Source: Enterobacter ludwigii (GTDB lineage: Bacteria > Pseudomonadota > Gammaproteobacteria > Enterobacterales > Enterobacteriaceae). From it: DNA of 64,000 bases. The DNA is taken from contig NZ_CP017279.1 in NCBI RefSeq assembly GCF_001750725.1, positions 3,596,001 through 3,660,000 on the forward strand. The letters are read 5' to 3'. The notes under the pieces were generated by a model. It was not told the origin of the DNA. It did not search any database and saw only the letters and a program-made list of their open reading frames with translations. How positions within the stretch are numbered: the stretch's first letter is position 1; each line of letters opens with the position of its first letter. Below are positions 16,450 through 61,051 of this stretch, in pieces. The translations under genes were made by a program, and so were the position numbers.

Positions 16450-16470
16450 GTTTATCTCCTGACGCCGGGC

Positions 16471-16497
16471 AAAAAAAAGCCCCTCAAATGAGGGGCT
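16471..16497 (-). terminator. pyrBI attenuator
   Basis: GCCCCTC/GAGGGGC forms a GC-rich stem followed on the minus strand by eight T. It overlaps the end of pyrL and precedes pyrB by about 20 bases. By known precedent, ribosomes translating pyrL close behind a UTP-starved polymerase block this hairpin and let transcription continue. Confidence 0.95.
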
Positions 16498-16588
16498 CTG
16501 GGAATAGATTGTGCAACGGGAAGAAAAACGGCAGGCCAGCGTCTGATTTCAGACGCGGTAAGACGTTATGTCGTACACGCTTGACCAT
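16484..16588 (-). CDS. pyrL: pyrBI operon leader peptide PyrL
   Basis: A 34-residue leader, [18 protein letters not shown] then [11 protein letters not shown]. It resembles E. coli PyrL (44 residues) in the central [15 protein letters not shown] segment. The frame ends inside the attenuator stem. The U-rich stretch encoding FFF is where polymerase pauses in the known mechanism. A longer in-frame extension upstream exists but lacks support from the E. coli peptide. Confidence 0.9.
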
Positions 16589-16688
16589 GCTTCCTCCCGG
16601 CAAATTGTCGGGCATTATACGCAGCTCGATTTTCGGATCAAGGGGTTTAATGCACACTTTACTCAATGCAAACGGTTCTTTATGAATA

Positions 16689-49089: not shown

Positions 49090-50496
49090 TTACATCTCCT
49101 GTACAGTTTCAGGGCTGTCTTTCTTAATAAAACGAAGAATAAGGGCCGTCAGTAATGCGCCTGCAGCAATAGCAGCGATATAGCTGACAACATGGGTGAT
49201 CACATTCGGAATAAACATGACAAATACGCCACCGTGCGGGGCTCTTGATGCACATCCCAGCGCCATAGAGAGGGCCCCTGCAAGCCCGGACCCTGCAACA
49301 ATGGCAGGGATGACACGTAGCGGATCAGCTACTGCGTAAGGGATTGCACCTTCCGTGATAAAAGACAGGCCAAGAACATAGGTGACTTTGCCGGTGTCTC
49401 TTTCCTGACGGGTAAACTTACGACCAAACAGCGTGGTGGCGAGCGCAATGCCTAACGGCGGTACCATGCCAGCAGCCATGCAGGCGGCAATCGGTTCATA
49501 GATACCTGTCGACATTAGGCCAATAGCAAACATACAGACGGTTTTATTCAGCGGTCCTCCCATGTCGAAGGCCACCATCATGCCTATCATAAGTCCCATG
49601 ATGGCTGCGTTGGTATTCCCGAGGTTCTGAAGAAATAAGGTTAGCGAGTCGAGAAGAAACTTAATGGGCTCGCCAATGACTAACACCATCAACGCACCGG
49701 TAATAAAAACGCTCAGTAACGGGACGATCAGTATCGGCTTCAGGCCTGCCACGGACTTAGGGAGATTGATATATTTCACAATCAGCAGCGTGATATATCC
49801 CGCCAGGAATCCGGCCAGTAGTGCTCCGAGAAATCCCGAACCCGTTTGTATCGCCATCATGCCGCCAACGGCCCCGGAAACCATGCCCATATTGCCGCTA
49901 ATTGATTTACTGATGCCAAGTGAAAGAATGGGCAGCATCAGGGCAAAAGCGGCACCCCCACCGATATCAGAAAGCATTTTTGCAACAGGGCTGAAATTTG
50001 GATCGCCAGGTGTTGCAGCGGTAATGCCAAATGAGAAACTCAGGGCAATCAGAATGCCACCGGCAACCACGAACGGAATCATCAAGTTAACGCCGGTAAT
50101 AAGATGAATATAAATCTGGGAAACGAGAGATTTATCCGTATCTTTTTGTGACTGCTTTTCCGAAATATCTGACGCAAGATACCGTTCAGGCTGTAATTTT
50201 CCAGAAACAATATCATCCAGTAACCCAGATGCATCTTTCGCTGCACGCGTTACCGAGACGCGGATAATGTTTTTATTATTAAAGCGCGAGAGATCAATAA
50301 CCTTATCAGCGGCGATTAAAACTACGTCCGCCTGCCTGATATCATCATCTGTAAAAATATACTCACTTTCAACAGCGCCATGCGTTTCAACAAGTAAGGG
50401 AATGCTTTTTTTACAGGCGTTCTTTTTGAGGTTTGCTTCAGCAAGGTATGTGTGTGCAACGCCAGTTGGACAGGCGGTAATTGCAATGATTTTCAT
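49090..50496 (-). CDS. PTS fructose-family EIIBC permease
   Basis: A 468-residue permease with EIIB cysteine C9 in ITACPTGVAHT and a long EIIC domain with GGPLNK near the middle, the fructose-family motif. It imports and phosphorylates a sugar with the separately encoded EIIA upstream (21-base gap) and passes it to the class II aldolase downstream. Its two domains are shared with the left-hand EIIBC, but the two systems are clearly different in sequence. Confidence 0.92.
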   Translation of the reverse strand: MKIIAITACPTGVAHTYLAEANLKKNACKKSIPLLVETHGAVESEYIFTDDDIRQADVVLIAADKVIDLSRFNNKNIIRVSVTRAAKDASGLLDDIVSGKLQPERYLASDISEKQSQKDTDKSLVSQIYIHLITGVNLMIPFVVAGGILIALSFSFGITAATPGDPNFSPVAKMLSDIGGGAAFALMLPILSLGISKSISGNMGMVSGAVGGMMAIQTGSGFLGALLAGFLAGYITLLIVKYINLPKSVAGLKPILIVPLLSVFITGALMVLVIGEPIKFLLDSLTLFLQNLGNTNAAIMGLMIGMMVAFDMGGPLNKTVCMFAIGLMSTGIYEPIAACMAAGMVPPLGIALATTLFGRKFTRQERDTGKVTYVLGLSFITEGAIPYAVADPLRVIPAIVAGSGLAGALSMALGCASRAPHGGVFVMFIPNVITHVVSYIAAIAAGALLTALILRFIKKDSPETVQEM

Positions 50497-50517
50497 TTTA
50501 TTCTCCTTGTAAGGATG

Positions 50518-50991
50518 CTACTCCCCGGTATTGCTGAGAATTAACCGGTACAGTTCCTCTTGTGAGCTGGCATTAAGTAATTTGTCGACGACGTCATCAT
50601 CTCCTAATGCAATTGATATACGGGCCAGCACTTTTATGTGTCCCGCTCCGCTGTCGACGTCTTTCACGGCAAACAGAATCACCAGTTTGACATCGGAACT
50701 ATCCATGGTTTCCCAGTCAACAGTCTCCTTTAGCCTGGCAACAGCAATTCTTGTTTCTTTAACCCACTGAGATTTTCCATGTGGAATAGCAATCTGATTT
50801 TCGAAACCCGTTGACCCCAGTGCTTCTCTTGCAAGCACGTCAGCGATAAAACCTTGTTTATTATCGATTACACCTTCTTCGCATAGCGACTGCGTCAGTT
50901 GCTCAATGACATCCATTTTACTGTTCGCCTGCATATCAGTTATCACGCAGGCTTTGCTTAATAGATCACTTAAAACAATTTTATCTAACAT
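50518..50991 (-). CDS. PTS EIIA, fructose/mannitol family
   Basis: A 157-residue EIIA-Fru/Mtl domain. The phosphorylation site is H71 in IAIPHGKS. It passes phosphate from HPr (or FPr) to the EIIB domain encoded next. Its ATG is one base after the stop of the regulator gene, with AGGAG inside that gene, so translation is coupled. Confidence 0.93.
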   Translation of the reverse strand: MLDKIVLSDLLSKACVITDMQANSKMDVIEQLTQSLCEEGVIDNKQGFIADVLAREALGSTGFENQIAIPHGKSQWVKETRIAVARLKETVDWETMDSSDVKLVILFAVKDVDSGAGHIKVLARISIALGDDDVVDKLLNASSQEELYRLILSNTGE

Positions 50992-50992
50992 G

Positions 50993-52498
50993 CTATTTCT
51001 CCTGAGAGTTGCGTTCGGTGAATAATGTTTCCGTCACGCGAATAATATCTTTTGCTGAAAAAAGAGCGGATACATATGCCACAGGGATCATCATTTCTTC
51101 TATCCTCACCGTTGAAATGATTAAGTCACATTTCTTTTCAGATAATGTTTTTTTAAGCCTGCTTCCAGGCACAATGTCGACAATCTCCCAGTCCGGGAAT
51201 GCTTTGGTGATCCGGCTATACAGAAGCTGCGATGTGCCGACTCCACTTGAACAGACAAGGATAATTTTTTTGTTCTCTTTAACCTTTTCTATTGCTGCCT
51301 GAATATAAACGCTTAAATAAGCAACTTCATCCTCTGAAGGGGGGTCGTGTTTATCATAGTTATTTATTTTTATAGTGGCGCTTCTGACAGCAGCGAAAAC
51401 ATCTGAGAGTTCTTTTTTTATTTCATCAAGAAGAGGGTTGTGAATAATTATCCGGTAAGTTAGTCGATTTAGCATCGGCTTAATATGCATGACCAGAGAG
51501 TTCAACAGTGTTTTGTCTGATATTAAATCACATTTAAGCGACTGAGAGATGTCACTTGTCAGATTTATGGCATAACTTACCGCCTCTTTATCCTGAAAAT
51601 CGTTATCTGGAAGGTTGGTTAAGGTCGTATCTTTTCCAGATGAAATCAGATACTGATAGATGTAGTTAATTTCAATCTCTGGAAAGGAAAATGTATACTT
51701 TCCCTCTAGCCATGATATTGCTTTAACTGCAACTTTCCATTCTTTATTATCATGAACTGGAACCTTCTCGTTATCGGTATGAGGATGACACTTCTCCATT
51801 CGTCTGATGGTGACCAGTAAATGTGAAAAAAGATTGGTGTAGTAAGGTTCACTGATTGCACATGCTAATTCATCTTCTATGAAGGTGATGAGGTTGATAC
51901 AGTTCGCGACGTTTTCTTTACCAAACTCTTTTATGAGTTGTACACGAGAAAATCTGTCGATTCGACTATCGGTCATCTGATAATTACATAATACGCTATG
52001 TGTTATGATCTCCTTGAGAGCCATGCGAATATCATAGTCATTACCTTCAACATACGTTCCCGTATGATTCTTTATCATCACAAGTGAAAAACTGCCCAGC
52101 CATTTATCAATTTTATTTAAATCCTCTACGATTGAGGAGCGGCTGATGAAATACTTGTCTGACAAAAAAGTAATGGATAATGGCGTGGGTGAGTGCGTCA
52201 GCAAATCAGTGATGATGCCAATGAGTCTTTTGCTTTTTAATATGTTAGCAACATGTTCGTCTGGAGATGTAACTGGCAAAGACACTATTTCACTTGCATC
52301 CAGCCTCATGCCCAGGCCAGGTCTGCAGAGTATGTGATTGCCTTTATCAGCGAAAAAGTCGTTGATAGCATCAACATCTCTTCTGAGCGTGCTCACTGAG
52401 ATATGAAGGATTTTCGCGGCCTGAGCCGTGCTTAGCCAACCATCTTCCTGAGCTAATTGATTTACCAGCGATATTTGTCTTTTGCTCAGCACTTTCAT
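50993..52498 (-). CDS. PRD-containing (BglG/MtlR-type) transcriptional regulator
   Basis: A 501-residue PTS-controlled regulator. An N-terminal HTH (STAQAAKILHISVSTLRRD, about 20-40), two PRD domains with phosphorylatable histidines (near FSHLLVTIRRME and LVMHIKPMLNR), and a C-terminal EIIB-Gat-like domain with C416 in VCSSGVGTSQ. The EIIA-like domain of MtlR is absent, so it is of the shorter type. It is the first gene of the operon with EIIA, EIIBC and aldolase and probably senses PTS phosphorylation to activate them. A 438-base gap precedes it. Confidence 0.9.
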   Translation of the reverse strand: MKVLSKRQISLVNQLAQEDGWLSTAQAAKILHISVSTLRRDVDAINDFFADKGNHILCRPGLGMRLDASEIVSLPVTSPDEHVANILKSKRLIGIITDLLTHSPTPLSITFLSDKYFISRSSIVEDLNKIDKWLGSFSLVMIKNHTGTYVEGNDYDIRMALKEIITHSVLCNYQMTDSRIDRFSRVQLIKEFGKENVANCINLITFIEDELACAISEPYYTNLFSHLLVTIRRMEKCHPHTDNEKVPVHDNKEWKVAVKAISWLEGKYTFSFPEIEINYIYQYLISSGKDTTLTNLPDNDFQDKEAVSYAINLTSDISQSLKCDLISDKTLLNSLVMHIKPMLNRLTYRIIIHNPLLDEIKKELSDVFAAVRSATIKINNYDKHDPPSEDEVAYLSVYIQAAIEKVKENKKIILVCSSGVGTSQLLYSRITKAFPDWEIVDIVPGSRLKKTLSEKKCDLIISTVRIEEMMIPVAYVSALFSAKDIIRVTETLFTERNSQEK

Positions 52499-52890
52499 TA
52501 TCCACTCCTTCGAAGAAATGTTGGCGCTTCAATGATGTTAGTTATAACGACTCTCATGATGCGAGGAAATACCATGAAATGAACGCATGTATACCATCAC
52601 AATGAACAGCTCGTTATTCGGGAGAGGCGTGATTATACGTGGGCGTTTGTAAGTTAATGTCCCTAAGAGAAAAGAACAGGGTAGTTAACTGGTTTAATGG
52701 ATGGGGATATTAATAGCGTGAGCTTGATGTTAATTCTATTTTCAAAAAAAACACAATTTGGAGACGAAGTTAAATGAGTCATATACAGAAAATTTCATAG
52801 CAAGATTTGTCTTTTGAAGTCATCTTTTTCTAAGGAATGCTCTGGTTGATATGTCATTCAGTTGAAGATTTTTCTGAAATGTTTAAAAAG
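52499..52890. other. AT-rich regulatory region between the two sugar modules
   Basis: No gene is supported here. The sequence is low in GC and includes poly-A and poly-T stretches. The upstream promoter of the PRD regulator operon must lie in it. I could not assign a clear -35/-10 pair or operator. Confidence 0.45.
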
Positions 52891-52920
52891 AAACAGAGGG
52901 CAGGGGATTGCCCTCTGTTT
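52891..52920 (-). terminator. Terminator of the EIIC operon
   Basis: AAACAGAGGGCA (52891-52902) pairs perfectly with TGCCCTCTGTTT (52909-52920) and is followed on the minus strand by CTTTTT. It lies 16 bases after the EIIC stop. Confidence 0.88.
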
Positions 52921-52936
52921 GTGTTGTGACTCTTAA

Positions 52937-54199
52937 TTAAGGCGCAGTACTGAAAAACTCCCCAAACTTCACTGCCAGCCAGCCAACCGGTGTGGTCGCC
53001 CCCCCGACAATATTGGTAATTTCAGACATTCCCTCCGGCACCGGAATGTTGGAGTTAACCGCCGCCTGAGTGTATTCCTTAGAAATGTCCGTTCCGACGT
53101 ACAAAATGCAGCTGACGATCAGCGTGCCGCTAATGAACATGCGGAACATATTGCGTTTACAGAATGGCGTGACCATCGCCAGCAGGAACATCAATGAAGC
53201 GAGGTCGACAAATGGCAGAACGCGGTTACCGGGCAGAATGATAGACAGCACTACGGCCATCGGGATCAACAGCAGTCCGGTGGCCAGGACTGAAGGTTCG
53301 CCAATCAATAACGCGGTATCCATGCCGATATAAAAGTCACGGTCAGGGAATTTGGCCTTCAATTTTGCTTCTGCGGCATCACGGACGATAAGCAATCCCT
53401 GCACCAGTATTTCAATCATTTTTGGCAACAGCAGCATCGCCGCGGAGACCTTGATTGCCAGCGAAACGGCAGCCGAAACGTCATACCCGGCAAGGAATGC
53501 CAGCAGCAATCCCAGTACGAAACCCAGCGTTAACGGCTCACCAAATACACCGAACTTTTTATTAATGCTTTCCGGATCAAAATTAATTTTATTGATAAGC
53601 GGAATCTTATCAATAATGTAATTACAGGCTATGCCAAAGGGGACGTAGGCTATACAGGTAAGGTGAGGGAAAGAAATCCCTTTTAGATTATAATTTTTTT
53701 GTAAATACGGGGCGGTTAAATCTGCTGCCAGTAACGTTAAGACAAAAATACCAAATGTTATGCCAACAGAAAGCCAGTAGTTACCGGTTCCGGCATACAC
53801 GACCGAGCCCATGATCAGGAATATCCAGTAGTTGAAGATATCGATATTCACCGTTTTGGTTAATTTGAGCAGTAGCATGGCCAGATTGATGACAATAAAA
53901 CCGACCACGACAGGCAGCATCAGCGGAGAGCCCCAGCCAATCGTTGAAGCGGTCGGCCACCCGGTGTCGACGACATTCAGTTGCAGGCCGATGCGCTCGA
54001 CCATTGCCTGTGATGCAGGGCCAATGTTCGTCAGCAGCAGGCCAATTACCAGGCCGACGCCTTCGAACCCAATACCGACCAGCATCCCCGCTTTAAATGC
54101 CGTACCGATTTTTACCCCAAAGCAAAGTGCGATAATAAAGAATATTACTGGCATCATGACTGATGCCCCCAGACTAATAATGCTGTTGATAATATCCAT
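52937..54199 (-). CDS. PTS galactitol-family EIIC permease (SgcC/GatC-like)
   Basis: A 420-residue membrane protein with about 10-12 spans, typical galactitol-family motifs (GVKIGTAFKAGMLVGIGFEG, GWGSPLMLP) and a length like GatC/SgcC. It needs partner EIIA and EIIB-Gat proteins. None is encoded within this operon, which is unusual. It is the last gene after the 2-hydroxyacid dehydrogenase (88-base gap), and ends in a strong terminator. Confidence 0.88.
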   Translation of the reverse strand: MDIINSIISLGASVMMPVIFFIIALCFGVKIGTAFKAGMLVGIGFEGVGLVIGLLLTNIGPASQAMVERIGLQLNVVDTGWPTASTIGWGSPLMLPVVVGFIVINLAMLLLKLTKTVNIDIFNYWIFLIMGSVVYAGTGNYWLSVGITFGIFVLTLLAADLTAPYLQKNYNLKGISFPHLTCIAYVPFGIACNYIIDKIPLINKINFDPESINKKFGVFGEPLTLGFVLGLLLAFLAGYDVSAAVSLAIKVSAAMLLLPKMIEILVQGLLIVRDAAEAKLKAKFPDRDFYIGMDTALLIGEPSVLATGLLLIPMAVVLSIILPGNRVLPFVDLASLMFLLAMVTPFCKRNMFRMFISGTLIVSCILYVGTDISKEYTQAAVNSNIPVPEGMSEITNIVGGATTPVGWLAVKFGEFFSTAP

Positions 54200-54287
54200 A
54201 ATGATTCCTTAACAAGGCGGCCGAATTGGGCGCGAGCGAAGCCGAGCCCAATGGGCTGTATAAAAACCTTAAAGGTCTTTTTTATAT

Positions 54288-55283
54288 TTAACTGAGTTTC
54301 TTCAGCAAGATCTCAGCAAATAGTTTGGGTGAATTACTGAAGGCGTCGAGCGTACTGCCCGCAATATGCGGGGTGATGGTGACGTTATTCAGTAAATAAA
54401 ACGCGCTGTCGTCAGGTAACGGCTCATCGTCGAAAGTATCCAGCGCCGCCCCCATGATTTTTCCGGTCTGTAGAGCGTCAATCAGATCGCGTTCATTGAT
54501 TAGCCCGGAGCGCGCGGTATTAACAATAATGGCGCTGCTTTTCATTAACCCGAAATGGTGTGCGTTGATCAGGTTTTCGGTTTCCGGCGTCATACGGGCA
54601 TGGAGTGAGACAACGTCAGCCCGTGTTACCAGCTCGTCAAGGGTATCGACTTTCTCATAGCGTTCGTGGCCGGAGACGTACTTATCATAAAAGATAATTT
54701 CCGTGCCGAAGGCGCTAAGAAAACCCGCGACGAGTTGAGCAATATGACCCAGGCCAACCAGACCGACAACCTTACCGCCAAGCTCTGGAATAGCCTGATG
54801 ATTCGGGCTGTCTTTACGCCAGAACTTATCGCGTAACGCATCATGAGAACGGGCAATATTGCGCATTTCGGCCAGCATCATCCCGACCGTAAATTCCGCC
54901 ACGCTGCGGGCATTGCGCCCCGGCGTGTTCATTACCTCAATTCCCCGGGCCAGTGCGACCTGCTGGTTGACGTTTTCAACGCCCCCTCGCAATACCCCGA
55001 TGTATTTGAGCTTTGGCAGTTTATCCAGCACTGCCGTATTGACCGGAGCAAACTGGGTTATCAGGATTTCAACGTCGTCAGCACCCTCGAGTAAGGCTGC
55101 GGGTAACGTAACCGCTTCTGCGCCTTCCTGCTCGACCCGCAGATTATCCTCCTGCAATTTTTCGATCGAATCATGCGACCATTCACGAACTTCAACGTCG
55201 ATACCTTTATCCCTGAGCGCATTAAGACCTGCTTCCATCATCGCTTTGTTGATAAAAAGATCGGCAATTGCCAGACATTTCAT
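54288..55283 (-). CDS. D-isomer-specific 2-hydroxyacid dehydrogenase
   Basis: A 331-residue NAD(P)-dependent dehydrogenase. The Rossmann motif GLVGLGHIA is at about 174-182. The catalytic triad R258 (NTARSG), E287 (TFDDEP) and H306 (ITPHIAGST) is complete. It reduces a 2-keto acid to a D-2-hydroxyacid or the reverse. It lies 16 bases after the SDR gene and upstream of EIIC. The natural substrate is not known. Confidence 0.93.
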   Translation of the reverse strand: MKCLAIADLFINKAMMEAGLNALRDKGIDVEVREWSHDSIEKLQEDNLRVEQEGAEAVTLPAALLEGADDVEILITQFAPVNTAVLDKLPKLKYIGVLRGGVENVNQQVALARGIEVMNTPGRNARSVAEFTVGMMLAEMRNIARSHDALRDKFWRKDSPNHQAIPELGGKVVGLVGLGHIAQLVAGFLSAFGTEIIFYDKYVSGHERYEKVDTLDELVTRADVVSLHARMTPETENLINAHHFGLMKSSAIIVNTARSGLINERDLIDALQTGKIMGAALDTFDDEPLPDDSAFYLLNNVTITPHIAGSTLDAFSNSPKLFAEILLKKLS

Positions 55284-55299
55284 AGTGATTCTCCATAGA

Positions 55300-56061
55300 T
55301 TAACGCATCAACATACCGCCGGTGACATCCACAGTTGCTCCCGTCATATAGCTGGTTTTAGGAGAAACCATGAAGACCCCGATGTCGGCAATTTCATTTG
55401 GCTGAGCTACCCGACCTACTGGAATCCGGCTGACGTAATAGGCTGGGTCCTGTTCAATATTTTTACGGATCATCGCGGTGTCCATAATCCCGACAGCGAT
55501 GTTGTTCACGTTGATATTTTGTTTTGCTACCTCTCTTGCCAGCGAGATAGAGAAAGCTACCAGGCCCGCTTTACTGGCCGCGTAATGGGCATGGCCGGTT
55601 GTGGATCCATGGAATGCAGCCTGTGAGGTAATATTCAAAATGCTGCCTGCCTGATCTTGTTGCAGGCAGTGATTCACAAACAATTGGCTTAAATGGAATA
55701 CCGCTTTCAGGTTCACATTCATTACCAAGTCCCAGTCTTGTGGGGTTATCTCGGCAACGTAACCACTGAGCCAGATACCGGCGTTATTGACCAGAATGTC
55801 GGCCTTTCCCATCTGCTCAATGCAGGCCGCAAAGAGATGCTCCCGGCTTTTCTCATCGGCAAGATCGGTTTTCACCGCAATAATTTTGACGTCAGTGGTG
55901 GATTTCACCTGTTCAATCAGTAATTCCGGGCACTCTTCATCACGCAGGTACGTGAAACAGATATTGACGCCTTCTTTAGCCAGGGAAAGGACAAATTCCC
56001 GGCCAAGCCCCGTGGCTCCACCGGTGACGATGGCTGTGCGGTGTTTCAGATTTAGATCCAT
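55300..56061 (-). CDS. Short-chain dehydrogenase/reductase
   Basis: A 253-residue classical SDR. Cofactor motif TGGATGLG at 13-20, NNAG at 92-95, catalytic S146, Y160 and K164 (YAASK). The fold suggests oxidation of a sugar alcohol or reduction of a keto-sugar. It lies 11 bases after the kinase gene and 16 bases before the dehydrogenase, so the polyol/keto-sugar is probably modified in the same pathway. Confidence 0.93.
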   Translation of the reverse strand: MDLNLKHRTAIVTGGATGLGREFVLSLAKEGVNICFTYLRDEECPELLIEQVKSTTDVKIIAVKTDLADEKSREHLFAACIEQMGKADILVNNAGIWLSGYVAEITPQDWDLVMNVNLKAVFHLSQLFVNHCLQQDQAGSILNITSQAAFHGSTTGHAHYAASKAGLVAFSISLAREVAKQNINVNNIAVGIMDTAMIRKNIEQDPAYYVSRIPVGRVAQPNEIADIGVFMVSPKTSYMTGATVDVTGGMLMR

Positions 56062-56072
56062 TCATTCCTCAC

Positions 56073-57611
56073 TTAATGCGTGATGTAGTTACTGCAGCTT
56101 TTCCATGGGGACTGCATTTCAGATAACAGGTTTTTGTAGAGCTGATATTTGTCCTGGTACACTTGCTGATGGGCCGGATTCGGCGTCACGGTACGCGCGA
56201 CGCGCACCATTTCATTGGACGCGGCGAAGACATCATCAAACCAGCCAATCATGACAGCGGCTGTCATTGCGGTTCCGAGTGTGCCGTGCTCTTTAACATC
56301 GACAATCTCAAGCGTGCACTGGAAGATATCGGCAAAGACCTGTAGCCAGACCGGCGAGTTGGTGACCCCCCCAGCAATTCGTATGGTGCGACTCAAATCC
56401 GGATTGATGTTTCGTAAACGTTCGGTGTGATAGAGATGGCTGAACGCCACACCTTCGTAAATCGCGCGCAGGAAATGCGCTTTTTTATGGAAACTGTTCA
56501 CCCCAATAAAGCCTGCTGAGGCATCGGGAATGGTGTTAGAGCCAAATACGAAAGGAAAGAACAGCAGATGGCTTTCTTCTGGCGTCGTGGATAAGACCAG
56601 CGAGTTACACAACTCATAGACGGAAGATCCCTGAGCAGCAGCGGTTTCCCGGTCGTTCTCCATGAAATTATTGATAAACCATTCAAGATTGCTGGCAGAG
56701 GTCGGGCTGGCTTCGGTTATCAGCCATTTACCGTCGATCGGGTAAATCGACGTCATAAACAGATCTTTGTCGATAACCGGATGGTCAGTCACATATTCAT
56801 TGATGCTCCAGGTTCCGGTGATGATAGCCAGCTTATTGAGGGTATTAATCCCGGAGGCGACAGACGAGGCGGAAATGTCGAACACGCCGCCAGAGACGGG
56901 GGTGCCTGCGCATAAGCCTGTCTGACGGGCGACTTCATCGGTTATCCGACCGCAGCAGTCCGTGGACAGTTTGACGGGGGGCAATTTCGCGCGCAGGTCA
57001 GCAAGCCCCCACCATGCCAGTAGTTCATCGTCATACTTGCGGTCACGTACGTTAATCAGGTTGGTCCCGGAGAGGTCAGTAAGCTCAAGATAAGCCTCTC
57101 CGGTCAGGTAGAAGCGGATCAGGTCTTTTACCATAAAAATGGTATGTGCTTTCTGCAGCACCTCCGGCTCGTTATCCTTCAGCCAAGCCAGCAGAGCAAT
57201 GGGTTGTCCGGCCCAGATTGACTGCATGGTTTTAGGCAGGATGTCGGTCAAAAACTCGGGTGAGTTTTGCCACTTTTCTACGTACTCTTTTGCCCGACTG
57301 TCGGTTGAGATAATGCCGTTGCGGACCGGGTTGCCAGCTTCATCTACCAGATACAAACCGTTCCCATGTCCGGTGACGGCGATTCCTTTGATTTTACTGG
57401 CGTCGATCCCTGATTGCTCAATCGCTTTTTTGATGACCTCGATGTTAGCCGCCCACAGCTCGGTAATATCGCGTTCGGTATGAAATTCCCTGGGTGTCAG
57501 CATCTGGGTGGATTTTGACGCGATAGAAACCACGCTGCCGTTGCGATCGTAGATAGCCGCCTTAGTGACTGTCCCGCCATTATCGATACCCATTACATAT
57601 TCATCTTTCAT
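56073..57611 (-). CDS. FGGY-family carbohydrate kinase
   Basis: A 512-residue kinase. The N-terminal phosphate motif is GIDNGGTVTKA (residues 8-18). A second ATPase domain begins near 260, and the segment GGVFDISASSVASG holds the catalytic Asp. Its relatives are xylulose, L-xylulose and AI-2 (LsrK) kinases. The substrate is not fixed here. ATG at 57611 has AAGGAG about 10 bases before it. A start at 57638 would overlap glpP. It follows the GlpP-like gene by 20 bases. Confidence 0.92.
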   Translation of the reverse strand: MKDEYVMGIDNGGTVTKAAIYDRNGSVVSIASKSTQMLTPREFHTERDITELWAANIEVIKKAIEQSGIDASKIKGIAVTGHGNGLYLVDEAGNPVRNGIISTDSRAKEYVEKWQNSPEFLTDILPKTMQSIWAGQPIALLAWLKDNEPEVLQKAHTIFMVKDLIRFYLTGEAYLELTDLSGTNLINVRDRKYDDELLAWWGLADLRAKLPPVKLSTDCCGRITDEVARQTGLCAGTPVSGGVFDISASSVASGINTLNKLAIITGTWSINEYVTDHPVIDKDLFMTSIYPIDGKWLITEASPTSASNLEWFINNFMENDRETAAAQGSSVYELCNSLVLSTTPEESHLLFFPFVFGSNTIPDASAGFIGVNSFHKKAHFLRAIYEGVAFSHLYHTERLRNINPDLSRTIRIAGGVTNSPVWLQVFADIFQCTLEIVDVKEHGTLGTAMTAAVMIGWFDDVFAASNEMVRVARTVTPNPAHQQVYQDKYQLYKNLLSEMQSPWKSCSNYITH

Positions 57612-57631
57612 TACCGTGGACTCCTTATTGG

Positions 57632-58183
57632 TTACCATAAACCCGGCTCGCTGGTGGTTATTCCTTTAAACCCGGCATGGAATATTTTATCTACAAGGTA
57701 TTTCCGCTTTACAAAGCCTCCGGCGATGAATATCACGTCAAAGCCATTTAAATTTCGGCTAATCAATTCCAGGCACTGGCAGGCATATTCAGCAGGTAAG
57801 ATTTCTATTGCATCCGGCGGGTTATGTTTAACGATGTCGATAGACTGATCCAGCGATCGAGAATCGATAAGTAACACCCGAAAAATAGTCAATAACCCCT
57901 CTTTTTTTGCATAGCGCAGGGCGGAGAGATTGGAAGAAATAACACCATCAACTTTATAATAACTTTTCAGTAAATTGATCCCAGCCTGATCGGGTTTAAA
58001 CCCGCCGAGTAACTCCAGATGGACCAGAACCTTCTTACCACTTTGATGACATTTGCCTATCAGTGATTGCAGATTGCCGATATTGGCCTCTGACAACAGA
58101 ACATATTCCGATGCACAGGATAATGCCTTGTCAAAATGCTTATACTTTCTAACTGAAGGAATGATGGTGTTATTTAAAAACAT
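57632..58183 (-). CDS. GlpP-family (glycerol-3-phosphate-responsive) antiterminator
   Basis: A 183-residue protein with the TIM-barrel-like GlpP fold: KKVLVHLELLGGF, VDGVISSNLSALRYAKKEG, FRVLLIDSRSLDQSI, PDAIEILPAEY and FIAGGFVKRK. In Bacillus, GlpP with glycerol 3-phosphate prevents termination in the glpD leader. The family is mainly Gram-positive, so its presence here is notable. It is the second gene of an operon whose leader holds a strong terminator (59011-59056), the natural target for such a protein. The ligand is not known. Confidence 0.88.
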   Translation of the reverse strand: MFLNNTIIPSVRKYKHFDKALSCASEYVLLSEANIGNLQSLIGKCHQSGKKVLVHLELLGGFKPDQAGINLLKSYYKVDGVISSNLSALRYAKKEGLLTIFRVLLIDSRSLDQSIDIVKHNPPDAIEILPAEYACQCLELISRNLNGFDVIFIAGGFVKRKYLVDKIFHAGFKGITTSEPGLW

Positions 58184-58197
58184 ATTAGTATCCGATG

Positions 58198-58989
58198 TTA
58201 TTTAGCCATATAGAGGCTGTATGCTTCTTCCGCAGAGGCATTTTCGTGGACGATAGCATTCAGGCCTGCGACCACTCTGTCTGGTCGCGGGTCCTGAGTG
58301 ATATTTCGACCCACTGCCACCCCTTTAGCCCCAACCTGCATACAGTGCAGAACAAACTTGAAGTAACCATCAATGCCGGTTTTTGGGCCCCCAAGTGCAA
58401 GGACGGGAACGCCTGCCGCTTCGACGATCAAGCGGTCTTCCGCTGTACCTGTAAAACGTGTTTTGATGACATCGGCCCCCAGTTCCACTGCGGCGCGAGC
58501 CGAGGCGGCGATAATTGCCGGGTTGTTCGAGTCGTCGCTGGTCACGGGGTAGCCATAGGGAAGTGATTCGACAATTAGCGGCACGTTCCAGCGGTCTGCG
58601 GCCTGTGCCAGTTGCATTGCCATGATGTGCGTTTTTTCTTCGTTGAAGGCACCCGGGAAGGTCATGCAGACGACACCTTCAGCGCCGACTTTTAATGCAT
58701 CTTCAACGGTAAACATCGGGGTAGTATCGGGAACGGTATTATCAAAAATACTGACTGTACTATCGACGCGTAATACAACAGGAACCGAATTTAATGGCTC
58801 ACGAAAATTTTTCAGCATGCCGTACGTGACCAACGCACAATCCAGCCCTTGCTCAACCAATGCCGGCAGTTGGTTTATCGTATTATCAATACCATTTGTT
58901 TTCGTGGAAAAATAGTAACCATCCAGCGCTAATGTCACTGATTTACCATCTTTTGCAAAAATCTTTGAGAGACGGCGTTCTTTAGACAT
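58198..58989 (-). CDS. Class I (DeoC/FbaB/LsrF-type) aldolase
   Basis: A 263-residue (beta/alpha)8 protein. Schiff-base lysine candidate K176 in ADVIKTRFTG, and phosphate-binding GGPKTG and GVAVGRNI. It resembles archaeal-type class I aldolases and LsrF, the thiolase of AI-2 breakdown. It is the first gene of the operon, with AAGGAG before the start and a hairpin terminator 20-70 bases upstream. The combination with an FGGY kinase recalls LsrF-LsrK. Confidence 0.92.
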   Translation of the reverse strand: MSKERRLSKIFAKDGKSVTLALDGYYFSTKTNGIDNTINQLPALVEQGLDCALVTYGMLKNFREPLNSVPVVLRVDSTVSIFDNTVPDTTPMFTVEDALKVGAEGVVCMTFPGAFNEEKTHIMAMQLAQAADRWNVPLIVESLPYGYPVTSDDSNNPAIIAASARAAVELGADVIKTRFTGTAEDRLIVEAAGVPVLALGGPKTGIDGYFKFVLHCMQVGAKGVAVGRNITQDPRPDRVVAGLNAIVHENASAEEAYSLYMAK

Positions 58990-59010
58990 TTATTTACTCC
59001 TTAACAAGAT

Positions 59011-59056
59011 AAAAAAACAAAAAAAGCCCTCAGAGACTCACGTCTCTGAGGGCTTT
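59011..59056 (-). terminator. Leader attenuator of the aldolase-GlpP-kinase operon
   Basis: A perfect 15-base stem (59023-59037 with 59042-59056), loop TCAC, and an AT-rich tail reading TTTTTTT on the minus strand. The tail ends about 20 bases before the aldolase start. No promoter fits between it and the gene, so transcripts must cross it. The operon encodes a GlpP-type antiterminator, which suggests regulated read-through. Confidence 0.88.
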
Positions 59057-59377
59057 CTATTCACATACCCTTGCGATAATGGTTCAGAAATCTAAATCAT
59101 TATCAGTTAATTTGTTTTGCAATTTGAGAGGGGTTTAAACTTTGTTTATATTTAAATCCGTTCTCTTGCGTGCTTAAATAACTAACATGCTCAGGATTAG
59201 CTTGTCTAGTTTGAGTGCCAAAATTGAGAAGCTGATCACGTCAATTTTTTATTTTTGTAAAAATCAACGGGGCAACGATTTTAAACAACCAGTTGAAATC
59301 GAACAATTAATGATTCTTTCGAAAGATCGCTAGTGGTTGAGACATTTTAGCCCTGCAGGTCTTCGATATCACATCCG

Positions 59378-59770
59378 TTACTCCACCAAATCGTAGAACA
59401 CAAACGCCAGTTTATTACCATCCGGATCGCGTACATAGGCACTATAGAACCCGTCACCGTACTGGGGGCGATATCCCGGCCCCCCTTCATTCGTACCGCC
59501 AAGCGACAGAGCGAGAGTGTGCGCCTGCTGTACCTGTTCTACGGACACAGCATTCAATGCCACCATGGTCCCATTACCCACGGACGCCGGTTGTTTATCA
59601 AATGGTCGGCCCACGCAAAGGCCAGTCGTGGTATTCGCACTAAATGTGCCCCAGGACGCGCCTTCTTCATTCCGGCCTGCCTTTGGATACCCAAGCAATT
59701 CCATCAACGGATCGTAGAATTGGATGGCGCGTGGCAGATCGCTAGTACCCAGCATCACGTAAGAAAACAT
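59378..59770 (-). CDS. VOC-superfamily (glyoxalase/bleomycin-resistance type) protein
   Basis: A 130-residue VOC protein: MFSYVMLGTSDLPRAIQFYD, then GDGFYSAYVRDPDGNKLAFV at the C-terminus. It may bind a metal and detoxify or sequester a small molecule. A broken copy lies at 45256-45603. It is the last gene of a five-gene unit, 24 bases after the MdtM-like efflux gene. A 388-base gap without genes follows downstream. Confidence 0.85.
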   Translation of the reverse strand: MFSYVMLGTSDLPRAIQFYDPLMELLGYPKAGRNEEGASWGTFSANTTTGLCVGRPFDKQPASVGNGTMVALNAVSVEQVQQAHTLALSLGGTNEGGPGYRPQYGDGFYSAYVRDPDGNKLAFVFYDLVE

Positions 59771-59794
59771 AACCCCTCCTTACTTACATTTGTA

Positions 59795-61051
59795 TTATTG
59801 TTCCTGACAGCCTGCCGGTGATACTGACTGGCTCTGATGCTGCCCACGTAGTTTAAGCAGGCGGGCAACTGATATGATGACGGCTATACCGGCCAGCAGC
59901 GCCGCGCCGTGGATAGCAATCCTGCCGCCGGCATGGAAGTAAACCCAGCGGGTTATTTCAATGCTAAGGGCAATTATGCCGAGCGCCAGAATATTTAGCG
60001 TGGCAGAAACGGTGCCCTTTGGCAGGTTATGAGAAAAGAGCGTGAAGCGAAACAGCACCGGATAGAGCAGTCCAATACCCAGGGCATAAAAGCTCGTTCC
60101 CAGTACTGACCATAGCCAGACGTGTGGCCATAGCAGATTGCCGACCAGCAAAGTCAGCAAGCCAGCAAGCTGTATCGGGACAGTCCCCCAGATAAAACGC
60201 GGTGAAGTCGGGTCTTTGATAAAATTCGCTACGATCGCACTGGCGATAATGATCCCACTAAACACGGGCACCTGTGTCCAGGCATAGGTTCCGGGAGACA
60301 TACCCCCGTGCTCAATCAGGATCACGGGTGAGAGCGCCACCCAGGTGATGATGGGCAGGTTGCCAAAAGCAACTGCCAGTGAGCCGGTCAGCACCAAGGG
60401 ATGGCGAAATGCCGCAATGAAATCTGACAGTACTTCACCCGGTTTGAATTCTCTTCCCTGAGATATAACTGTTTCCGGCATTTTGAGCAGTAGTAAAAAC
60501 CATGCTACCAGACCAAACACACCGATGATGGCAAAGAGCAGTTTCCAGTGAATGAACGCCATCAGCGCAGCGCCGGCCACAGGCCCGATAACTGGGGCGA
60601 GCAGAACAATAGAGGTCAGCGTAGCCATGATTCTGATGGAATCCATTTCACCAAACGCCTCCTGAATTGAGACGTAACCAACGGTTGAGATAAAACAGAT
60701 GCTGGTGCCCTGAATGAAGCGGGCGACGAAGTATTGTTCGATCGAGGTGACAAACAGCATGCTTAGACTGGCAAGGGCAAAGATCATTGCACCAGTGAGC
60801 AGGACAGGGCGGCGGCCAATCCGGTCGGAGAGTGGCCCCAGGAGCCACTGTAGCGCCAGTCCGCCTGCCATATACAAACTGACTGATGCTGGAGCCAGCG
60901 TCACATCCGCCTGTAGCTCATTTATAATGCTAATGACGCCCGGCTGAATAAGGTCCGTTGTCAGGTAGGCTGAAAAATCGTAGATGATCATCGCCAGTGG
61001 AAATAATAGAACGCTGCCATACCTGCTAAGGCGTCCCGAAAATGGCTTCAT
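59795..61051 (-). CDS. MFS multidrug efflux transporter of the MdfA/MdtM family
   Basis: A 418-residue, 12-span antiporter with the DHA1 motif [11 protein letters not shown] and the acidic residue in [16 protein letters not shown], placed like the essential Asp of MdfA. Segments [13 protein letters not shown] and [11 protein letters not shown] match E. coli MdtM more than MdfA as remembered. It exports drugs and cations using protons. The start at 61051 has GGAGA about 8 bases upstream. A TTG at 61093 overlapping the upstream gene is rejected. Confidence 0.9.

Follow-up and report, generated by a model that had tools for sequence, protein, structure and literature searches.

The leader of a six-gene sugar operon in Enterobacter ludwigii is very probably controlled by terminator attenuation, with a GlpP-family protein encoded within the operon as the antiterminator. 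The operon lies on contig NZ_CP017279.1 of assembly GCF_001750725.1, in a window of 64,000 nucleotides (positions 3,596,001 to 3,660,000 of the forward strand) whose numbering is used here. The original prediction, made from these letters alone, had proposed such an attenuation circuit, and this idea is largely borne out. We consider attenuation by the GlpP-family protein the best supported reading because all 29 leader loci that we compared, which come in 15 distinct forms, retain the terminator together with the operon, and because the terminator has a conserved promoter-like region upstream of it and a conserved short helix overlapping it. The terminator, the gene content, the promoter-like region, the mutually exclusive helix and the joint occurrence of GlpP relatives and a related element at other loci are directly observed in the sequences. 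The leader contains the following features.

59225..59240, minus strand: CRP-like site CGTGATCAGCTTCTCA, at a fixed spacing kept in 13 aligned leaders
59178..59208, minus strand: promoter-like region, TAGACA (59208-59203) and TTAGTTAT (59185-59178), gap-free in 13 leaders
59126..59165, minus strand: leader hairpin 1, from the fold; 12 pairs, of which 5 show changes on both sides; 95.2% of cells pair across 14 leaders
59075..59104, minus strand: leader hairpin 2, from the fold; 13 pairs, of which 1 shows changes on both sides; 93.9% of cells pair across 14 leaders
59049..59071, minus strand: proposed antiterminator AGGGT[ATGTGAATAGAAA]GCCCT, between hairpin 2 and the terminator, with its 3' strand (59053-59049) in the terminator 5' arm
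59011..59056, minus strand: intrinsic terminator, stem 59056-59042/59037-59023 and T-rich tract, from sequence, terminator scan, fold and conservation

The terminator (AAAGCCCTCAGAGAC-GTGA-GTCTCTGAGGGCTTT) has 15 perfect pairs, a GTGA loop and a T-rich tract that ends at 59011. As had been predicted, it stands directly before the aldolase gene: 21 bases, AAGGAG included, separate the T tract from the ATG at 58989, and therefore there is no space for a promoter after it. A terminator scan scores it as 17 pairs and ranks it top of 9 terminator-like sites in 52500-60500, a number of sites that is at chance level (8.2, standard deviation 3.0, in shuffles). The predicted fold of the leader RNA (59172-59010) reaches -54.7 kcal/mol compared to a mean of -27.2 in 200 shuffles, none of which equals it (z -8.15). 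Across 14 leaders 98.7% of the terminator cells are paired, and two of the leaders have changes on both sides of one pair. Taken jointly, hairpins 1 and 2 and the terminator have 96.1% of cells paired and 7 pairs changed on both sides, a number reached by 0 of 500 shuffles and by no slid version (at most 5). Leader-peptide attenuation was rejected, as the leader has no reading frame of note.

Upstream of the hairpins, the promoter-like region rests on conservation, since a simple sigma-70 scan of 52500-60500 does not report it. Transcription would start near 59172. The CRP-like site is not significant within the window alone, where 18 matches with at most two mismatches are found and 24.8 are expected; in the leader of an Erwinia metagenome-assembled genome the same position holds an exact TGTGA-N6-TCACA. 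Judged from these sequences, the operon is probably under CRP control.

The candidate antiterminator is the helix formed by AGGGT and GCCCT. Its 3' strand lies within the 5' arm of the terminator and the two hairpins are therefore mutually exclusive. A search of homologous leaders for a conserved RNA element upstream of the terminator stem had been suggested in the original prediction, and this helix is what such a comparison yields: it is present in 15 of 15 distinct leader forms, and all 70 of its cells in the 14 leaders are paired. The AGGGT strand and the TGA and GAAA positions of the loop are conserved in a stretch that belongs to neither hairpin 1 nor hairpin 2. The loop of the window carries GTGA and GAAA where related elements have GAGA and GAGA; among the aldolase leaders, the form of genome G027, GGGGT[CAGTGAAGAGAAA]GCCCT, comes nearest to the canonical element. 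A relaxed motif, written after the window form had been seen, finds the element in 19 of 20000 window shuffles and has two matches outside the expected leaders (L039, L081). We therefore also used a neutral score, trained on other loci only and made to avoid the bias of the relaxed motif. Its top site is the AGGGT/GCCCT helix in every one of the 10 aldolase leaders tested (out of 15 distinct forms), and between 4 and 81 of 1000 shuffles score equally well, depending on the leader. The antiterminator alone has a predicted stability of -5.1 kcal/mol, the terminator of -29.9 kcal/mol, and hence the antiterminator could prevail only with assistance or by being transcribed first. That this helix is the exact element recognized by the GlpP-family protein is a proposal that we favor, with less assurance than the attenuation itself.

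At least 80% of the operon region is present in 3 of 5426 complete E. coli genomes (95.8-96.5% identity). Close homologs of the aldolase occur in 5 of 392 drawn genomes of the family, and all five of these genomes also have the GlpP homolog, G737 and G760 being treated as one genome from their coordinates. Within the genus of G766 (the K. michiganensis locus) 10 of 20 genomes have close homologs, and within that of G765 (the Erwinia aphidicola locus) 4 of 37, G767 among them. Homologs at 71-73% identity are known as proteins from Brenneria and Providencia. The named loci include Enterobacter sp. JUb54, Citrobacter amalonaticus, Klebsiella spallanzanii, grimontii and michiganensis, Entomohabitans teleogrylli, three Erwinia and K. 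pneumoniae. Annotations of E. coli SE11, E. coli 19KM1766N and K. pneumoniae 176 were used to check the order of the six genes, as were lists of open reading frames of K. spallanzanii and E. aphidicola. In two loci, those of G767 (L151/L152) and of Erwinia persicina (L042), the GlpP-family gene is split into two pieces that overlap and lie in different frames, behind an intact leader.

A related arrangement is found in E. coli K-12. The GlpP relative YgcP is encoded at a distance of 5.5 kb from the intergenic region of the divergent genes ygcW and yqcE (L048:16275-16592), which has a leader terminator on each side, each with an antiterminator-like element, AGTTACC[AGAGATAATGAGAAA]GGTAACT in the ygcW leader and ATTACT[AGAGACCTGAGAAA]AGTAAT in the yqcE leader. 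The region also holds a CRP-type site, TGTGATTACGATCACA. In two earlier studies, the pair ygcW<>yqcE is among the gene pairs from CRP SELEX (systematic evolution of ligands by exponential enrichment; PMC3105977), and both genes stand in a table of predicted binding sites (PMC1794230); neither name occurs in the main text of PMC2965389 or of PMC7815308. The original prediction had described the GlpP family as best known in Gram-positive bacteria and knew of no account of this combination in an enterobacterium. The family is not foreign to enterobacteria, given that K-12 has YgcP and two such leaders. Of 5426 complete E. coli genomes, 4998 match at least 80% of the double leader region, and in 26 ygc loci (K-12 and 25 others) the element lies upstream of the ygcW homolog in 25 cases and of the yqcE/ygcE homolog in 21. 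A strict form of the motif has 45 matches in 27 ygc stretches (504,516 bases), 43 of them in the target leader regions; the other two are without a T tract. An Rfam search of L048, L050, L051, L100 and L104 returned sok only. In one of the loci without the element (L072 of genome G155, 16460-16590) the ygcW-yqcE intergenic region has shrunk to a single palindromic terminator and the stretch between the terminators is gone. The two terminators of L070, a locus from the same genus, are near-identical inverted copies, and a deletion between terminators or an assembly collapse is therefore possible in L072.

Several Gram-positive glp-type leaders contain an element of the same kind, stem-[NGAGA..GAGA]-stem, in which a short stem encloses two GA-rich loop halves and the 3' strand lies inside the terminator. 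Examples are TGTGA[AAGAGATTAAGAGAC]TCACG in the Cytobacillus glpF leader, TGTCA[GGAGAAGAGA]TGACA in a Listeria leader (presumably that of glpF) some 1 kb upstream of glpK, GTTACT[GGAGACCAGAGAGA]AGTAAC in the leader of an Enterococcus MFS gene adjoining glpP, and ATGAC[AGGAGATGGGAGA]GTCGT in Acetoanaerobium. Stems of 3-4 base pairs occur in the Cytobacillus glpD leader and in two unannotated Paenibacillus leaders. The strict rule finds the element in 9 of 10 leaders, which had been picked after the motif was seen in them, with stems of 3 to at least 7 pairs; the E. gilvus short-chain dehydrogenase (SDR) leader has no element under this rule.

In an alignment of 25 elements, 4 of 7 helix pairs are changed on both sides, which 4 of 500 shuffles reach, and 13 cells are changed on both sides compared to 3.2 in shuffles (0 of 500 reach this number; slid versions at most 5). 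The Acetoanaerobium element is shifted by two columns in this alignment and was scored as unpaired. A covariance model of the related element, R1, was built without any element from the aldolase operons and was run, together with a search for GlpP, on one shared draw of 198 enterobacterial genomes. A GlpP-family gene is present in 28 of these. At E<=0.05 R1 finds sites in 25 genomes, 24 of them GlpP-positive and 23 of these 24 with two sites; at E<=0.001 the same 24 genomes remain and none of the 170 GlpP-negative genomes is hit. The sole GlpP-negative match at the looser threshold is G044 (E 0.024). Of the 24 genomes, 14 had supplied sequences to the model and 10 had not, and G148 and G195 have the sites and the GlpP gene on different contigs. 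The Fisher value of about 1e-25 is uncorrected for relatedness and is hence a description and not a probability. The four GlpP-positive genomes without a match are G000 and G027, which have only the aldolase-operon type, G155 with its collapsed leader region, and G074. The GlpP-family member of G074 (L094) is divergent, at 23% identity, and the 19-kb stretch around it has no ygcP, ygcW, yqcE or ygcE homolog at E<=1e-20. In Gram-positive records (W06, W07 and W08 excluded) R1 has no match in Listeria (E up to 5) or Paenibacillus (E up to 2); its E values elsewhere are 2.45 in Fusobacterium, 0.81 in Cytobacillus (glpD leader), and 0.008 (the training site itself) and 0.63 in Acetoanaerobium.

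Several results weigh against our interpretation. R1 misses the element of the window even with filters off (20000-64000) and has no site in the window's own genome, and the strict motif has no match in the window. The neutral score of the window is matched by 47 of 1000 shuffles. The AGGGT/GCCCT helix is almost invariant in the 14 leaders and thus gives no covariation signal of its own, and among the 25 related elements further pair types number 6, compared to 6.9 in shuffles. Hairpins 1 and 2 are conserved and play no part in the proposed model. Finally, six or more Gram-positive GlpP loci have no clear element; these loci and leaders include Planococcus L067, Fusobacterium L096/L101, Vescimonas L097, Peptoclostridium L098 and Enterococcus L102, as well as Enterococcus L068, which has two leaders with variant loops.

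Part of this evidence would fit GlpP-family antitermination that is real and acts on another target, either the unusually conserved terminator sequence itself or one of hairpins 1 and 2. The arms of the terminator are nearly invariant, with 11 of 16 pairs showing no variation in the 14 leaders, both hairpins are kept, hairpin 1 with its five double changes, and the failure of R1 in the window points in the same direction. Conservation of the AGGGT strand and of the TGA and GAAA positions outside the two hairpins argues for the helix instead, and so does its architecture, which agrees with that of the ygc and Gram-positive elements and which the neutral score picks in all ten leaders, even if R1 and the strict motif do not. 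We regard a different target as unlikely, yet as the most serious of the alternatives. Conserved and covarying hairpins would also be expected in the aptamer of a ligand-binding riboswitch, in which case the GlpP-family protein would act elsewhere or not at all. This we judge very improbable: Rfam 15 gives no family at gathering score in 52000-60200 (the top match, His_leader, has 31.5 bits and the cut-off is 49), and the GlpP-family gene is part of the operon wherever checked, including the five drawn genomes in which it accompanies the aldolase.

The terminator might also serve to end the transcript of an upstream gene, with the operon promoter located after it, and a VOC protein gene on the same strand indeed ends at 59378 in the window. 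The distance of 21 bases behind the T tract leaves this idea with next to no credibility. Moreover, the neighbors vary: a VOC protein gene lies upstream in E. coli SE11, a zinc-ribbon protein gene in K. pneumoniae, and in K. spallanzanii the nearest long upstream reading frame is divergent. Since the leader is kept while the upstream genes differ where checked, the terminator belongs to the operon.

In the attenuation model that we favor, a promoter near 59172, probably CRP-dependent, would yield a leader RNA whose transcription stops by default at the terminator (59056-59011). The GlpP-family protein would bind a ligand, which may be a phosphorylated intermediate made by the FGGY kinase or downstream of it; the gene content points to a phosphorylated compound other than glycerol-3-phosphate. 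The ligand-bound protein would then bind this leader RNA and stabilize the short AGGGT/GCCCT hairpin, which would occupy part of the terminator 5' arm before the 3' arm has been made. Polymerase could then read into the aldolase gene, the gene of the regulator itself and the other four genes.

The genes of the operon and the site that closes it are the following.

58198-58989, minus strand: DeoC/LacD-family class I aldolase (PF01791, 75.6 bits)
57632-58183, minus strand: GlpP-family (PF04309) antiterminator protein (156.4 bits, cut-off 27)
56073-57638, minus strand: FGGY-family sugar kinase (PF00370 and PF02782)
55300-56061, minus strand: SDR (PF13561/PF00106)
54288-55283, minus strand: D-2-hydroxyacid dehydrogenase (PF02826/PF00389)
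52937-54199, minus strand: galactitol-type EIIC, EIIC-GAT (PF03611, 241.5 bits)
52891..52920, minus strand: terminator-like site closing the operon (12 pairs)

These Pfam assignments agree with the six families named originally. For the second gene the assignment to GlpP holds over the whole profile (residues 7-183 on profile positions 1-173 of 173), and the protein matches the structure of Listeria GlpP (3kts) with E 7.5e-24. None of the six proteins matches a BglG-type (CAT-PRD) family in Pfam. Aldolase, kinase and EIIC all fall under the NCBIfam cut-offs and therefore their substrates cannot be named. The EIIC has no EIIA or EIIB partner among the operon genes. Between the genes for the 2-hydroxyacid dehydrogenase and the EIIC lies a gap of 88 bases (54200-54287) that appears, by eye, to hold a G+C-rich inverted repeat. 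The next gene group (49090-52498) encodes a PRD-type regulator with helix-turn-helix (HTH) domains, a fructose-type EIIA and an EIIBC. The PRD protein (50993-52498; Pfam HTH and PRD domains) belongs to that group, which is not beside the operon in the five loci where gene order was checked.

A protein-stabilized hairpin that excludes an overlapping terminator, as proposed here, is also the principle of the ribonucleic antiterminator hairpins of BglG, SacY and LicT. These are CAT-PRD proteins unrelated to GlpP, and they recognize a different RNA consensus. The antitermination principle itself is known from B. subtilis GlpP. In that species GlpP with glycerol-3-phosphate overrides the leader terminator (PMC9604022) and is said to bind the antiterminator (PMC7430163). 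That system (glpD, glpFK, glpTQ) shares with the window a PF04309 protein, an FGGY kinase under control and a leader terminator overridden by the protein, the last being a proposal in our case (PMC9604022, PMC7430163). Unlike the B. subtilis system, the window has aldolase, SDR, 2-hydroxyacid dehydrogenase and EIIC in place of glycerol genes, a CRP-like promoter region, and a GTGA/GAAA loop where the Gram-positive leaders compared here, the B. subtilis leader not being among them, have GAGA/GAGA. The YgcP system is similar to the window in its GlpP-family protein (27% identical), the FGGY kinase and SDR genes nearby, the short helix overlapping the leader terminators and the intergenic CRP site. 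It differs in its two divergent leaders, in the distant regulator gene and in the canonical AGAGA..GAGAAA loop.

These comparisons allow a broader view, to which we give about even chances. GlpP-family proteins may be general antiterminators that sense sugar phosphates and act through one RNA element in Bacillota and Enterobacteriaceae, with a variable stem, a two-part GAGA-type loop and a 3' strand that is also the terminator 5' arm. YgcP would switch on the divergent ygcW and yqcE-ygcE operons, and the window would hold a diverged copy that answers to a different phosphorylated compound. In the open literature, most subscription papers being outside this scope, we found no report of GlpP-type antitermination in enterobacteria and none on the function of YgcP; no Rfam family was found for the stem-[NGAGA..GAGA]-stem element. 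With this analysis, a regulator family known chiefly through the glycerol genes of Bacillus gains a candidate RNA target, and the uncharacterised E. coli gene ygcP a likely function together with two target leaders. The prediction may lead to the substrates of the ygc operons and of the operon in the window and, if true, would add a portable protein-RNA pair for antitermination.

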